Origin: a virus
IMG/VR virus record: IMGVR_UViG_3300043420_001514
Span: 1-30,965 of that record
Strand: one strand, 5' to 3'
Length of the DNA: 30,965 nt
The translations under genes and the position numbers were made by a program. The notes beneath the pieces are model-generated. The model saw nothing but the letters and a program-made list of their open reading frames with translations. It searched no databases and was not told where the DNA came from. This document shows, one piece after another, positions 1,575 through 18,756 of this stretch (its first letter is position 1; each line of letters opens with the position of its first letter).

Positions 1575-2906
1575 ATGCCACAGAAAAACCTTGCAGGGCC
1601 TGGTGAGCGCATCACGGTGCATACAACCAACGATCTGCGCAATGCCGTGATCATCCCGAACTCCACTGCCCAGGACGCGAATCTGAGCTGGGCGGCCCGC
1701 GGATTGCTGCTGTTCATGCTCAGCCAGCCGATCAACTGGCAGTTCCACGAAAACGATCTGGTGAACCGCTCGCCGATGGGGCGTGATCACCTGCGATCCG
1801 TGGTGCGCGAACTGGAGGCCGCCGGCTACCTCAGGCGCTCTCGGATGCGCAAGGCCAATGGCGTTCTAGGTGGGCCGACCTGGCATGTCTGGGCCACACC
1901 CCAATCACCGGAATCCACTACAAACACTGACATCTCACCAGCGACTGGAAACCCAACGACGGAAAACCCGTCCCAGGCAAAAACCCGCGTCAGGACAGGA
2001 AAGTCACCTAAGACGGGAAAACCAACGACGGAAAACCCGTCTTTGGCACCAACGACGGGAAATCCGTCCTTGGTGCCAACGCCGGAAAATCCGTCTTTGG
2101 ACAGAACCCGCGTCAGGACAGGGAAGCCACCTAAGACGGGAAAACCAACGACGGAAAACCCGTCTTTGGCACCTGCGACGGGTTTTCCGTCCACATACAA
2201 AGAAAACAATCTTCCTTATGGATTTCCTGTAGAAAGCAATAAACCTCTATCCCCCCCTTCCCTGCGGGAAGGCCCCCCCCTTTCTCCAGCCGAGGGTTGC
2301 GAGGCTGCCCAGGAGCGGGCCGGCGAAGAGCGCGCGCCGCGTGCGGCGCTTACCACCCACAGCCGTTCAACCAACATCTGCACCACCGACCTGGACAGCT
2401 GCTCGCCGTCAGAGACGCCTAGCAGACCCGTGAAGGCTCCTGAACAGCCTCCCGGGTGTACCGACGCCGGGACACCTTCCAGGGGCGGCCTGCAGGGCCG
2501 CACAGGCGCCAGTCCGCTGCCGGCCTATGCCGAGCCGTACCGCGAGCAGCTGATCACCTGGCAGCGAGCCCGCCAGCAGCGCCACAAGGTCAAGCCTGAA
2601 AAGCTCTCCACCCGCTCGCTTTCCGCCCTGGCCTACGCCAGTCAACTGGGAGTTCTGGAGGAGTTCACCAGCCTCGCCGCTGAAGCCGGTTGGTTGTCCC
2701 TGGGCTTCAACGGCTACCGCGCCTTCATCGACGACCTGTTGGCAGAACAAAACGGCGAGCGTTCACGTTCATGCTCGGGGACGCTAGGCTCCCGGCAACC
2801 TGCCACATCCAGGCAGGAGCAGGCCTGTCGCGATGCCGTCGCCAAACTCGACGCCATGGCAAACGGTCAGATCACTAATCCCTTTGCGCCGTTCAACGCT
2901 GTCTAA
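1575..2906 (+). CDS. Replication-initiator-like winged-helix protein
   Basis: A 443-residue protein, taking ATG 1575; an upstream GTG at 1542 falls inside a hairpin. Residues about 20-90 match the winged-helix start of phage and plasmid replication proteins: IPNSTAQDANLSWAARGLLL, then a trimmed helical stretch and RDHLRSVVRELEAAGYLRR. Residues about 122-206 are a low-complexity run of TGKPTTENPSL-type repeats, which at DNA level form an iteron array. A proline- and glutamate-rich linker follows, and a C-terminal helical domain (about 320-390, YREQLITWQRARQQRHKVK) closes the protein. The order of DNA-binding head, repeat-bearing middle and C-terminal domain is that of lambda O-type initiators whose origin lies inside the gene. 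It probably binds the repeats and starts element replication. No helicase or loader is encoded nearby. It heads a chain of tightly packed small genes to 4759. Confidence 0.7.
   Translation: MPQKNLAGPGERITVHTTNDLRNAVIIPNSTAQDANLSWAARGLLLFMLSQPINWQFHENDLVNRSPMGRDHLRSVVRELEAAGYLRRSRMRKANGVLGGPTWHVWATPQSPESTTNTDISPATGNPTTENPSQAKTRVRTGKSPKTGKPTTENPSLAPTTGNPSLVPTPENPSLDRTRVRTGKPPKTGKPTTENPSLAPATGFPSTYKENNLPYGFPVESNKPLSPPSLREGPPLSPAEGCEAAQERAGEERAPRAALTTHSRSTNICTTDLDSCSPSETPSRPVKAPEQPPGCTDAGTPSRGGLQGRTGASPLPAYAEPYREQLITWQRARQQRHKVKPEKLSTRSLSALAYASQLGVLEEFTSLAAEAGWLSLGFNGYRAFIDDLLAEQNGERSRSCSGTLGSRQPATSRQEQACRDAVAKLDAMANGQITNPFAPFNAV
1958..2255. other. Candidate replication origin: iteron array plus AT-rich stretch
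   Basis: Six near-palindromes of the form GACGG-N5-CCGTC (first base once C) start at 1958, 2027, 2054, 2081, 2150 and 2177, so the intervals are 69, 27, 27, 69 and 27 bases. Partial copies (GACGGGAAAACC) lie at 2012 and 2135. Immediately after the last copy, 2192-2245 is clearly AT-rich compared with its surroundings (for example tacaaagaaaacaatc), as expected of an unwinding element. Iterons inside an initiator gene followed by an AT-rich segment is the lambda-type origin design. The spacing in multiples of three also follows from coding constraint, so the origin role is inferred. Confidence 0.55.
1983..2173. repeat. 68-bp direct repeat, two copies
   Basis: The segments 1983-2050 and 2106-2173 are each 68 bases and differ at only two positions by eye. 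Each copy carries one partial and one full copy of the GACGG-N5-CCGTC motif. The near identity points to a recent duplication within the replication gene that kept the reading frame (offset 123 bases, 41 codons). Confidence 0.85.
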
Positions 2907-2909
2907 CCA

Positions 2910-3368
2910 ATGATCAGCCACAGCGATTTCTCTGCCGCGATCACTGGAATGATGCAATGTCTGCCATTCCAGAAAACAATCTCCGGCGATGGCTTGGTGT
3001 TTGCCTGGATCTCCTTCCCGGAAGAAGCCAAAGCAGAACTGGATCTTGTCCACCTGGCCTATGCCTGCACGCAGCGGGTGCTGGATCCTGAGCCGGATCT
3101 CAACCGCGCCATACACATTCAGCTGCTGATGTACCTGTACCCAGTCGTCAATGGCGTGCCGGTGACCAAGCACGGCCTTCGGCAGGACATCAGCCAGCGG
3201 TTGCGGGAGCCTCACGCATTCCATCCGCTCAGCGCCCGCGCAGAGGCGCAGCTCCCTGTGCTACCGCCTGCCCCTGCGCAGCCACCGCAGGAAACAGCTG
3301 ATCAGCGCAAGGCACGTCTGGAGAAGCTCGCCAAGCTCACCCGGAGCGCCACCAATGCCAGCGCCTGA
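2910..3368 (+). CDS. Hypothetical protein downstream of the replication gene
   Basis: A 152-residue protein starting three bases after the stop of the replication gene, so the two are very probably co-transcribed. The first 100 residues look globular, with a hydrophobic pattern (FQKTISGDGLVFAWISF, later IHIQLLMYLYPVVNGVPVT). The tail is proline-rich, then basic (ADQRKARLEKLAKLTRS). I do not recognise the family. The position suggests a replication accessory role, but nothing in the sequence proves it. Its end overlaps the next gene by 14 bases. Confidence 0.65.
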   Translation: MISHSDFSAAITGMMQCLPFQKTISGDGLVFAWISFPEEAKAELDLVHLAYACTQRVLDPEPDLNRAIHIQLLMYLYPVVNGVPVTKHGLRQDISQRLREPHAFHPLSARAEAQLPVLPPAPAQPPQETADQRKARLEKLAKLTRSATNASA

Positions 3369-3660
3369 TCGCTCGCTGCAGCAGGTGGAGCACCAGGCCG
3401 GCCGCACTCTGGCCCTTGGCGTTCTACGCGGCTACTGGAGCCTGGAATGCCTCGACCAACCCTCGGCGGAATGGAGCGCCAACGATCGCGAACGCCAGGC
3501 CTCCAATGCCCGCCGCGTCAGCACCTCCCGCTACACCGCTTGGTTTGGCCCTGGCGAGCCCTATCGCAACCTCGCCCGCGAATGGATCGCCACTCACGCC
3601 AGTGAGTTCGACGCCTTGCTGCAGGAAGAGCTGGACAAAGAAAGCCTTTCGCACCGATGA
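3355..3660 (+). CDS. Hypothetical protein, 101 residues
   Basis: This starts inside the end of the previous gene (ATG 3355) and its stop overlaps the next start, so it is part of a coupled chain. The protein is rich in aromatic and charged residues (RGYWSLECLDQPSAEWS, then YTAWFGPGEPYRNLAREW) and ends in a helical acidic tail. No known family is recognised. The compact overlaps on both sides support it as a real gene. Confidence 0.6.
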   Translation: MPAPDRSLQQVEHQAGRTLALGVLRGYWSLECLDQPSAEWSANDRERQASNARRVSTSRYTAWFGPGEPYRNLAREWIATHASEFDALLQEELDKESLSHR

Positions 3661-4310
3661 CAGAGAGTTCTTTTAAGTGGCTGCAGCCATTGCCGATTCA
3701 GCCTCGCATCGGCGGCTCCTACGTTCTGGCCGATGGCCAGCAGATCACCACGACTTTTCTCAAGGTCGCCAATGCCATGGCTCACAAGGGCTGTCCACTG
3801 GAGGTCCCGCCCGAGCCGATCCGTTCTGCGCTGGCTCACTACCTGCGCCATCGTTTCCATCCAGACAAGGCAGACGGCCCACCCTGGATTCCAACCGCAG
3901 ATCGCTATCACCCCTTCCGCGGCTCTATCGAACCCCTGCTGGCTTCGTACATCTGGCAGCAAGTTCGGGTGATCGCCGCGCCGTTCACTTTTTACCTGCC
4001 CAATCAGGCTGTTGCCGGCTCTGCTGATGCGGTTATCGCCCTTACTGATGGCTCCCTGGCCGTCGCCGCCCTGGTCCACGCCGAGCCGAAGCCATTGCTC
4101 AAACACCGCGTCACCACCCTCCTGGGCGGCTTCATCGCCGCTGCCATCGACACCAGGGCCCTCACGCCAGCCCATGGCATGGCCATTTGGTGCAGTTGCG
4201 GCCAAACCCTGGTTGAGTCCTTCTCGCCCGATCTATGCCTCGGCCGCTGGGTTGAAACCTTCGATTACCACAAAACCGTTTACGGCAAACCAACTTTCGC
4301 TAATGCTTAA
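3657..4310 (+). CDS. Protein resembling an MGME1/RecB-like nuclease with lost active site
   Basis: A 217-residue protein with an ATGA overlap to the gene before it. Residues about 85-165 recall the core of MGME1-type PD-(D/E)XK exonucleases: a helical segment (RGSIEPLLASY), a strand (VRVIAAPFTFYL), the GxxD motif (GSAD, 121-124), a strand where D/E-x-K would sit (about 134-141, LAVAALVH) and a following helix (LLGGFIAAAID). The expected catalytic acid and lysine are replaced by alanine and valine in my alignment. It is therefore either a degenerate nuclease used as a binding protein or an unrelated fold. The family call is tentative, while the gene itself is well supported by context and codon use. 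Confidence 0.6.
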   Translation: MTESSFKWLQPLPIQPRIGGSYVLADGQQITTTFLKVANAMAHKGCPLEVPPEPIRSALAHYLRHRFHPDKADGPPWIPTADRYHPFRGSIEPLLASYIWQQVRVIAAPFTFYLPNQAVAGSADAVIALTDGSLAVAALVHAEPKPLLKHRVTTLLGGFIAAAIDTRALTPAHGMAIWCSCGQTLVESFSPDLCLGRWVETFDYHKTVYGKPTFANA

Positions 4311-4551: not shown

Positions 4552-4759
4552 GCAGCCCATACCACTGACCGCGGCTCAGGCGCTTCGAGTGATCGCAGCA
4601 AAAGCCCTTGAGATCAAAAGGGCCAATGGCGAGCTACCTGAGCACTACCCGGATCTCCTCGGTGCTCGGACTGAACTCGACTCGCTTTACAAATTGCAGC
4701 AGCACCGGACGCAACGTGGCGTTGTCCACGGCCCTAAAAGCCCGCTCGTCTTCCAGTAG
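4544..4759 (+). CDS. Small hypothetical protein running into the recombinase gene
   Basis: ATG 4544 overlaps the upstream stop (ATGCCTGA arrangement). The first ~32 residues (MPEQPIPLTAAQALRVIAAK, then ALEIKRANGELPEHY) look like a genuine helical protein. The remaining ~40 residues are read entirely from the antisense of the recombinase 3' end (4634-4759) and look less natural. The original 3' part may have been lost when the recombinase segment arrived. No function is recognised. Confidence 0.45.
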   Translation: MPEQPIPLTAAQALRVIAAKALEIKRANGELPEHYPDLLGARTELDSLYKLQQHRTQRGVVHGPKSPLVFQ

Positions 4760-5968
4760 GAACTGGTAATCCGGCATCAGCCACGGATCCACGATGCGAT
4801 CCATCCGCATATAGGCCACCTGATCCCGCAGATCCAGGATCGTCTTCCGCAGGCTTGGCACACCCTGTTCCTCCAGCTCTTCCAGCTGCCTGATCTGCTC
4901 ACGCAGCCGCGCCTCTTCTGGTGGAATCTCCGGTGGTGCATCCTCAGCCAGCAGCTGTGCCATCTGCTTGGCACGTTGCACAAGTGCCCGCGCCAACTCA
5001 TCCCTCACCCTGTCTTCTCTGACTGTCTTTCCGCATTGGCGGCACGACAGGTTGCGGCACTGGTATCTCGCCGCATGGGTCTGTTTGGCTGGTGTCTTCC
5101 AGCCCATGTACTTCCCGCAGCTACGGCACTGCAGCAGGCTCGTCAGCAGGTGCGCGTTGCCACCCTTCCTCTCCCTGGTCTTCGTCTCCCGCCGCGACAT
5201 CCAATAGCGCATTGCAGCGTTGTATTCCTCTGTGCTGATCAACCGCGGCGCACGGCCCCATTCGACCCGATCCCAGTTGCCAATCGACGTTCGCCCGTAG
5301 CCGATGCCCCCGCGCAGCATCGGATTGCGAACCCAGTTCAATAGGCCCGTCGCTGTTGGCTTCCACGGGAAGTCCTCCGGCAACCTTCTGATCGTCAACC
5401 TGAAGGCCAGCTGATCTGCCAGCAGCTGCTCAAACAGCCACCGTGCTTCCTGCCAGTGCTGGGGGTGCATGGCGGGCTTGCCATCAACTGCCACATACCC
5501 AAACGGCAGCCGCCCCCGTGCCAGATACCCCGCCTCTCTTCTCCGCCTTAAGCCATCGGCGCTCTTCAGCCCGATCATCCGCGCCTGCACCCGGTTCATC
5601 AGGCTGGTAACACCAGCTGACAGCAGCCCGCTCACCGACTGGTTCTCCCATACCTGCCCGAACAGGTCGCGTACTTCTGTCCCAGCAGTCGCGCATTCCT
5701 CCAGAAACTCCATATCGCTGCCGTCCCTGGCCAGCCGGCTCAGGTCAGCCACCAACACACGCCGCACCCGCCCCTGGGCCACAAGCAGCCGCAACTCCGT
5801 CCACCCTGGCCGCTGACCCTTAGACGCACTGCGCCGCTCGCTGATCACCCGGTCAACCCCTAGACGCTCAAACTCGGCCACCTGCATCTCGATGCTCGTG
5901 TCCTGCGCGTCCTGCATCGTGGAAACCCGCGCATAGCCGACCACCATCCGAGAATCCGGCCGGTTCAT
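4634..5968 (-). CDS. Large serine recombinase (site-specific integrase/excisionase type)
   Basis: A 444-residue protein that cuts and rejoins DNA at specific sites through a serine-DNA intermediate. The resolvase domain (about 8-140) has GYARVST with the nucleophile Ser16 and the DLSRLARDGSD motif with catalytic arginines. The recombinase domain (about 145-255) includes ARGRLPFGY. A zinc ribbon (CxxC at 281-284, further cysteines at 304, 309 and 312) is followed by a coiled coil (about 345-390). This is the layout of phage integrases and of cyanobacterial XisF-type excisionases, at the short end of the size range. It probably inserts or excises the element, but neither attachment site is visible. 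The gene is divergent from the ParB-terminase operon at 6026. Its 3' end overlaps the small plus-strand gene at 4544 by 126 bases. Confidence 0.93.
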   Translation of the reverse strand: MNRPDSRMVVGYARVSTMQDAQDTSIEMQVAEFERLGVDRVISERRSASKGQRPGWTELRLLVAQGRVRRVLVADLSRLARDGSDMEFLEECATAGTEVRDLFGQVWENQSVSGLLSAGVTSLMNRVQARMIGLKSADGLRRRREAGYLARGRLPFGYVAVDGKPAMHPQHWQEARWLFEQLLADQLAFRLTIRRLPEDFPWKPTATGLLNWVRNPMLRGGIGYGRTSIGNWDRVEWGRAPRLISTEEYNAAMRYWMSRRETKTRERKGGNAHLLTSLLQCRSCGKYMGWKTPAKQTHAARYQCRNLSCRQCGKTVREDRVRDELARALVQRAKQMAQLLAEDAPPEIPPEEARLREQIRQLEELEEQGVPSLRKTILDLRDQVAYMRMDRIVDPWLMPDYQFLLEDERAFRAVDNATLRPVLLQFVKRVEFSPSTEEIRVVLR

Positions 5969-6025: not shown

Positions 6026-6697
6026 ATGGCCACACAGAGGGAAAACGGGGAGGCGCAGGCCACGGCTGCGATTTCCCCTCCACAGCTTTGGGGACAGGTC
6101 GTGGACATGGGCCAAATACAGCCCGATCGCCGCAACGCCCGGCGCCGAACTGAGCGTTCCTCAGCTCTGATCGAAAACAGCCTCTCTGAGTTTGGTGCCG
6201 CCCGTTCGATCGTCATCGACGAGACCGGCACCGTCTTGGCCGGCAATGGCACCGTGGAGGCCGCGGCGTCACTGGGCATCGATCGCGTGCTGGTGGTGCC
6301 CACTGACGGCAACACGCTGGTGGCGGTGCAGCGCACCGATCTGAGCGAACGCCAGAAGCGCCGCTACGCCATCGCAGACAACCGGGCCTCTGATCTGTCC
6401 GAATGGGATGCCCAAACCCTCTCAGAGCTGTCTCAAGAGGATCCCGACCTGCGCCTCGACAGCTTCTTCACCGAGCAGGAGCTGGATCACCTGATGGCCG
6501 ACCTTGCGCCGGAGGAGGGCGGCGAAGAAGAAAAAACAGGCAGCCAGGGGAAGCTGGAGGTAAAACTCGCATTTGAAGACCCGAGCGACTTCGATACATT
6601 CCTGCAAACATTGCAACAGCTCAGTGCTGCGCTGCCCAAGCTGCGCACCACTGAGCAACGGATCCAGTACGTCTTAGACCAGTTCCTCAGTGACTGA
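6026..6697 (+). CDS. ParB/Srx-like domain protein of the phage packaging operon
   Basis: A 223-residue protein. Residues about 25-125 form a ParB/sulfiredoxin-type fold of the phage type: IQPDRRNARRRTE, the helix ALIENSLSEFGAARSIV, the signature VLAGNGTVEAAASLGIDRV (GNGT, 73-76) and RRYAIADNRASDLSEWD. Such proteins regularly precede terminase genes in phages and often carry DNA methylase or nuclease-linked roles, but no methylase domain is fused here. The C-terminal part is acidic (EEGGEEEKT), followed by a small alpha/beta domain (KLEVKLAFEDPSDFDTFLQT). Its stop overlaps the GTG start of the next gene by eight bases. The binding role and the place in the packaging operon are well supported; the exact activity is not. 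Confidence 0.85.
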   Translation: MATQRENGEAQATAAISPPQLWGQVVDMGQIQPDRRNARRRTERSSALIENSLSEFGAARSIVIDETGTVLAGNGTVEAAASLGIDRVLVVPTDGNTLVAVQRTDLSERQKRRYAIADNRASDLSEWDAQTLSELSQEDPDLRLDSFFTEQELDHLMADLAPEEGGEEEKTGSQGKLEVKLAFEDPSDFDTFLQTLQQLSAALPKLRTTEQRIQYVLDQFLSD

Positions 6698-18317: not shown

Positions 18318-18756
18318 TGCGAAGCTCCAGTTCAATCAAAGAAACAATTTCATCAAAAGTTGCAAGCCAGTCATCTTGACATTTGCGTTCGATCAACCAT
18401 GCCTGCACTGCACAGATCGCGGCGCGGGATTCATGCAGGTACAAGTTAGGGTCAGCGCAGGCGCTGGGATGTATCGCTGCAGAAACACGCTCCACCAGCG
18501 AACGATCAGGTTTGGCCGGATCGTTGGGTTCCGCTGGCTGGGCGGCATCCAGCCCGACCTTGAGGCGTGAGCCGGTGCTCAGGATGGTTCGCCGATCGGC
18601 CTCCAGTGCCTCCACGCGGGCGCGGAGTTCAAGGACACAGGACGAAAGCTCTTTCGGGTCCAGGTCGCAAGGGGTGCCGCAGTATTCGCAGACCCACCAG
18701 TGTGTTGTCCCAGGCCCGCCCACGCTGACCGGTGCGCCGCAGCAGTCGGAGATCAT
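18310..18756 (-). CDS. Zinc-ribbon-like hypothetical protein
   Basis: ATG 18756 is supported by a strong ribosome binding site (GGAGGT) and by an ATGA overlap with the upstream stop. The 148-residue protein begins MISDCCGAPVSV, with further cysteines at THWWVCEYCGTPCD (23, 26, 30), forming a probable zinc ribbon. A short coiled coil follows (SSCVLELRARVEALEADRRT), and then a helical C-terminal part (RVSAAIHPSACADPNLYLHE, IERKCQDDWLATFDEI). Phages often carry such N-terminal zinc-ribbon proteins of unknown role. Confidence 0.65.
   Translation of the reverse strand: MISDCCGAPVSVGGPGTTHWWVCEYCGTPCDLDPKELSSCVLELRARVEALEADRRTILSTGSRLKVGLDAAQPAEPNDPAKPDRSLVERVSAAIHPSACADPNLYLHESRAAICAVQAWLIERKCQDDWLATFDEIVSLIELELRND

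Follow-up and report, generated by a model that had tools for sequence, protein, structure and literature searches.

The locus considered here raises the question of whether a cluster of short palindromes, embedded in the coding sequence of a predicted replication initiator, is the replication origin of the phage that carries it. The DNA analysed (the window) is the whole of an IMG/VR virus record, 30,965 bases in length, and the contig has a GC content of 62%. A serine integrase gene (4634-5968, minus strand) and a gene for a ParB-like protein (6026-6697, plus strand) both adjoin the terminase genes, as in a temperate phage; the gene order around these genes is kept in about ten contigs. The host is probably a cyanobacterium, as suggested by the similarity of TerL to that of Cylindrospermopsis phages (33%) and by the presence of a relative of the initiator, of DNA-binding type II and C-terminal type B (see below), in Synechococcus phage KBS-S-2A; a scan of genome contigs with the C-terminal alignment, seeking the host, found no relative. 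Rfam and tRNA scans of the window gave nothing, the ORFs downstream of the initiator (2910-4310) had no Pfam or PHROG match, and no helicase-loader or P-like gene was recognised near the initiator. The initiator gene is laid out as follows:

1575-2906, plus strand: replication initiator (replisome organizer) gene, 443 aa, assigned from PHROG and 80alpha gp20 matches
1596-1910, plus strand: N-terminal winged-helix DNA-binding domain, from an AlphaFold2 model and structural matches
1953-2192, plus strand: duplicated four-box unit, copies 1953-2069 and 2076-2192, 87% identical
2192-2250, plus strand: AT-rich stretch, putative DNA unwinding element, from GC content and conservation
2256-2272, plus strand: hairpin CCTTCCC-TGC-GGGAAGG, a few bases downstream of the AT-rich stretch
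2514-2903, plus strand: C-terminal domain (type A), 31-61% identical across eight contigs

The first ~110 residues of the 443-aa protein match phrog_4707 (1.9e-16) and phrog_428 (6e-14), with a weaker match to the O-like phrog_345 (8.6e-8). The DNA-binding domain is 38% identical both to that of 80alpha gp20 (tblastn E 1e-16) and to that of TP901-1 Rep (tblastn E 2e-6). No Pfam family was detected in the protein at E<=0.1, including RepA_N (PF06970) and Phg_2220_C (PF09524), the latter scoring 1.1e-31 in 80alpha, and a PDB sequence search with the DNA-binding domain gave no match. The AlphaFold2 model of this domain (pLDDT 81) has three helices and a beta wing. Among solved structures it most resembles the RepA_N plasmid initiators: the best VIA-align matches were 4pql (Z 9.2), 4pt7 (Z 8.5) and 5kbj (Z 8.5), with other winged helices just under these three at Z 8.0-8.4. 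We take all three structures to be staphylococcal RepA_N initiators.

The sequence-only reading had described six near-palindromes of the form GACGG-N5-CCGTC between the DNA-binding head and the C-terminal domain. These were recovered with the same intervals (69, 27, 27, 69 and 27 bases); five are exact (at 1958, 2027, 2054, 2150 and 2177), the sixth, at 2081, has a single mismatch (GCCGG...), and there is no further exact copy anywhere in the 31 kb. Two weaker GG-N5-CC boxes, GACGGGAAAACCAAC, which had gone unreported, lie at 2012 and 2135, so that the whole array consists of eight GG-N5-CC boxes:

1958-1972: box 1, GACGGAAAACCCGTC, exact
2012-2026: weak box, GACGGGAAAACCAAC (GG-N5-CC)
2027-2041: box, GACGGAAAACCCGTC, exact
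2054-2068: box, GACGGGAAATCCGTC, exact
2081-2095: box, GCCGGAAAATCCGTC, one mismatch
2135-2149: weak box, GACGGGAAAACCAAC
2150-2164: box, GACGGAAAACCCGTC, exact
2177-2191: box, GACGGGTTTTCCGTC, the exact reverse complement of GACGGAAAACCCGTC, coding for TGFPS

The repeated unit is about 120 nt long and the two copies are offset by 123 nt. The array is far beyond chance expectation: ACGG-N5-CC occurs seven times per 250 nt within it and at most once per 250 nt elsewhere in the contig, and when the window was scanned for perfect palindromes with 5-bp arms and spacers of 2-9, every one found had a spacer of 5 (5 vs 0).

The peptide encoded by the boxes had been noted as low in complexity, and it is indeed a TENPS / TGNPS / TGFPS repeat. 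It had also been proposed that the DNA rather than this protein sequence is under selection, and four independent tests bear the proposal out: it is the DNA, and not the peptide, that is selected in the box array. When codons were shuffled synonymously (5000 trials, counting perfect boxes), the five perfect boxes of the window compared with a mean of 0.17 and a maximum of 3 in the 5000 shuffles; for the relatives pooled, 18 palindromes were seen against 5.4 expected (maximum 13). Synonymous variation in the repeats, for which a comparison among relatives had been put forward, pointed the same way. In L019, L025 and L027, three syntenic contigs that keep the window's boxes, the proportion of four-fold sites that are identical was 25/30 for the boxes and 12/13 for the AT-rich and hairpin part, compared with 15/44 for the DNA-binding domain and 27/61 for the C-terminal domain (37/43 vs 42/105; Fisher P = 2e-7). 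The remaining two tests concern how the boxes are read. The box at 2177 is inverted relative to its neighbours and is translated as TGFPS instead of TENPS, and in the cyanophage PaV-LD a motif nearly that of the window, ACGGACAAACCGT and variants of it, occurs in all three reading frames, giving peptides as different as TDKPS, HGQTV/NGQSV and QRTNR. The boxes of 80alpha are likewise in a different frame from those of the window. The bare GG-N5-CC count was less informative: under peptide-preserving shuffles 128 were seen against 94 expected, and because fixed-peptide shuffles explain much of the count, what is due to the peptide and what to the DNA can be told apart only in part. For the window gene alone, synonymous shuffling gave P 0.08, and since the bare count discriminates poorly gene by gene the palindrome test was preferred. 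As a separate observation, four-fold sites at 2291-2500 are also conserved among the same three contigs (15/17) even though nucleotide identity there is low; codon bias may be the cause.

The AT-rich stretch reported directly after the boxes is present as described. Positions 2192-2245 are 33% GC in a contig of 62% GC and fall within one of its two lowest-GC 54-mers; the other, at 18331 (31% GC), is in the structural gene region. Nucleotide identity among L019, L025 and L027 over 2192-2290 is 97%, compared with about 70% in the two domains. Hairpins comparable to that at 2256-2272 occur in the same position in L019, L022 and L026. The folding z of the window hairpin is not significant (-0.5; relatives -2.2, -1.5 and -3.0), and its role as part of an origin is suggestive only. 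The C-terminal domain is shared by eight contigs that bear differing DNA-binding domains, and is presumed to recruit the host helicase or primase. It had no match in annotated phages, and its model, helical and of low confidence (pLDDT 64), gave no structural match.

Origins inside initiator genes have been published for TP901-1, 80alpha and RepA_N plasmids (PMC8965321, PMC5499656, PMC5703833), and comparison with these systems helped to place the window. In TP901-1, ORF13 (Rep) is reported to bind direct repeats within its own gene, and these to act as ori (PMC8965321). The replisome organizers TP901-1 Rep and Tuc2009 Rep2009 have an in-gene ori, and TP901-1 Rep, like the window initiator, combines a homologous DNA-binding domain with repeats inside the initiator gene; unlike those of the window its boxes are few and AT-rich (GTGG-N5-CCAG), its host is a firmicute and its C-terminal half is not recognisably related. 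For 80alpha, ORF20 could not be complemented in trans, and ORF20 together with ORF21 drives plasmid replication (PMC5499656). The gene for gp20 resembles the window in its homologous DNA-binding domain, an annotated rep_origin inside the gene, and AACGGTAAAACC boxes followed by AT-rich DNA, and differs in its Phg_2220_C domain, its box frame and the DnaC-like loader gene that comes next. The lack of Phg_2220_C in the window protein bears on subtype and not on membership of the TP901-1/80alpha group, since proteins with this DNA-binding domain differ in their C-terminal domains. In the RepA_N plasmid pSK41, the Rep boxes are central in rep and the linker is dispensable, and the hybrid plasmid pPR9 is a natural exchange of N-domain and ori with the C-domain constant (PMC5703833). 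The Rep proteins of pSK41 and pPR9 resemble the window initiator in the position of the boxes in a central linker and in the logic of exchange, and belong to the family nearest to the predicted fold of its N-domain; these are plasmids rather than a phage, and the window protein lacks a PF06970 match. Within cyanophages, a close parallel was CPKG_00028 of KBS-S-2A (Synechococcus WH7803), annotated as hypothetical, which also has a DNA-binding head, CCCCCAAAAGGTGG repeats and a C-terminal domain, although the head is of type II, the boxes are different and the C-terminal domain is of type B.

The sequence-only reading had called the array a possible lambda O-type origin. The architecture of that proposal holds, with head, iterons, AT-rich stretch and C-terminal domain in one gene; lambda ori likewise has iterons, an AT-rich stretch and a palindrome, in that order, inside the initiator gene (PMC7466680). 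The family assignment does not hold: Phage_rep_O (PF04492) did not match the window protein, whereas the control, lambda O, matched at 5.7e-36, and for this reason the label of lambda O homologue does not suit the protein. The iterons also differ (CCCTC...GAGGG in lambda, GACGG-N5-CCGTC in the window), as does the surrounding gene content, with no P-like gene recognised here. On sequence similarity, the window initiator belongs with the TP901-1/80alpha replisome organizers and is lambda ori-like in its predicted working.

The spacing of the boxes proved to extend well beyond the window. The counts covered a non-redundant set of 36 sequences related to the DNA-binding domain, drawn from phages, prophages and metagenomic contigs, with TP901-1 Rep and 80alpha gp20 among the relatives (plasmid homologues exist and were left out). 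The 220 nt that follow the domain held 127 GG-N5-CC motifs against 46 expected (z 16); a spacer of 5 was by far the strongest, with smaller peaks at 4 and 11 (z about 4). Neither the domain codons of the 36 relatives (25 vs 51 expected) nor the DNA further downstream, beyond 300 nt (40 vs 46), was enriched; the same held for 12 paralogues from Streptomyces (32 vs 51), and five individual relatives (L013, L130, Clawz, L004 and L137) showed no excess. Streptomyces genomes contain many paralogues of the domain without GG-N5-CC boxes (L067, L079-L134).

Among cyanophage-like contigs, natural exchanges were found that separate the two ends of the protein. Of those with the C-terminal type of the window, L019, L025 and L027 keep its DNA-binding type and boxes, L022 and L026 have a different DNA-binding domain (PF13730) and CCCC-n-GG boxes, and L054 has a third box type. 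Conversely, L042 carries the DNA-binding type and boxes of the window on another C-terminal domain, the one found in KBS-S-2A, whose own boxes are of type II. DNA-binding types I and II each occurred with both C-terminal types, A and B, so that all four pairings were present. Box type follows the DNA-binding domain and not the C-terminal domain. A scan with C-terminal type B gave 43 loci with at least five box types, and in 19 type-II/B genes box similarity correlated with that of the helix-turn-helix (r 0.84) far better than with that of the C-terminus (r 0.23); in a partial Mantel test 0/5000 permutations were as high. In L181 and L177 the DNA is mostly 93-100% identical on both flanks of a divergent block of ~260 bp. 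The block starts at the recognition helix and ends with the last box, and identity within it drops to 52-70%; beyond it, the two again have the AT-rich stretch and hairpin in common. Part of the correlation is linkage, because recognition helix and boxes adjoin in the DNA, although linkage does not touch the evidence from cross-phylum spacing or reading frame. Comparison of these sequences indicates that the box array travels with the recognition half of the DNA-binding domain, the two behaving as a single specificity cassette that can be exchanged while the C-terminal domain is conserved.

The region from 1958 to about 2272 is, on this evidence, very probably the phage replication origin, lying inside the initiator gene. 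This reading is supported by the position of the origin in the homologues TP901-1 and 80alpha, and by the spacing signature, the DNA-level selection, the exchanges and the low-GC stretch. The N-terminal winged-helix domain, identified by homology and modelling, would bind the palindromic GACGG-N5-CCGTC boxes; several initiators may next gather on the array of eight boxes, and the strain would melt the neighbouring AT-rich DNA (2192-2250), by analogy with lambda, SPP1 and pSK41, and the C-terminal domain would bring in the host helicase or primase. The low-complexity peptide would be mainly a by-product of binding-site DNA in a tolerant linker.

Palindromic sites and a winged helix, a fold found in many repressors, would also suit an operator, with the boxes serving autoregulation or a polymerase block and the origin lying elsewhere. 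We consider this very unlikely: the boxes are 380-600 bp inside the gene and not at a promoter, they are followed directly by DNA that is among the lowest in GC of the contig, the origin is in this position in both homologues, 80alpha and TP901-1, and the contig has no second box cluster. That the repeats are simply a low-complexity protein linker, grown by slippage or duplication and devoid of DNA function, is harder still to believe; it would account for the 123-nt duplication and for much of the simple motif count, but not for the synonymous-shuffle result, the conserved four-fold sites, the inverted box, the three-frame encoding in PaV-LD or the exchange of boxes together with the DNA-binding domain. 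We give least credence of all to a centromere or a packaging or recombination site, for example one used by the ParB-like protein or the serine integrase. Both genes are in the window; they are, however, 65-98% identical in syntenic contigs that include L022 and L026, whose boxes are entirely different, and box type tracks the DNA-binding domain of the initiator.

An origin preferred on these grounds would be a sharply defined candidate for a phage group, probably cyanobacterial, for which we found no described origin. In the papers searched, which gave partial coverage, there was no iteron origin in a cyanophage and no description of a family-wide spacing rule or of cassette exchange in cyanophages; in-gene origins as such are already known, and the spacing rule and the exchange might be the less expected parts. 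More broadly, we lean slightly towards the view that this family, which spans many phyla and both phages and plasmids, relies on a common recognition grammar, with GG-N5-CC dyads placed in the linker-coding stretch, and that recognition helix, wing and boxes in the cyanophages form a single exchangeable origin-specificity cassette. If so, a single helicase-recruiting C-terminus would, through the cassette, serve many replicon types, and its exchange could possibly allow escape from incompatibility or superinfection interference. The preferred reading of the window also explains the widespread TENP/TGKP-type repeats of phage initiators, as read-through of DNA binding sites, and paired natural exchanges such as L181/L177 are a ready data set for relating recognition-helix residues to iteron choice.

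Two further features of the type B genes were noted. The linkers of L168-L188 contain AACAAGAACCCA repeats, and in this family a conserved perfect hairpin, GGCGCAAGCGCC, directly follows the iterons, where lambda ori has its palindrome. In marine-looking contigs (L153-L166, L183, L187 and L190), the type B domain is preceded by a third N-terminal type (MPSVSLRLTDAQVSWLDAQT..., ribbon-helix-helix-looking), and an inverted repeat, GCTGATAAAACCGAGC...GGTTTTATC, replaces the iterons; this is possibly another type of origin.
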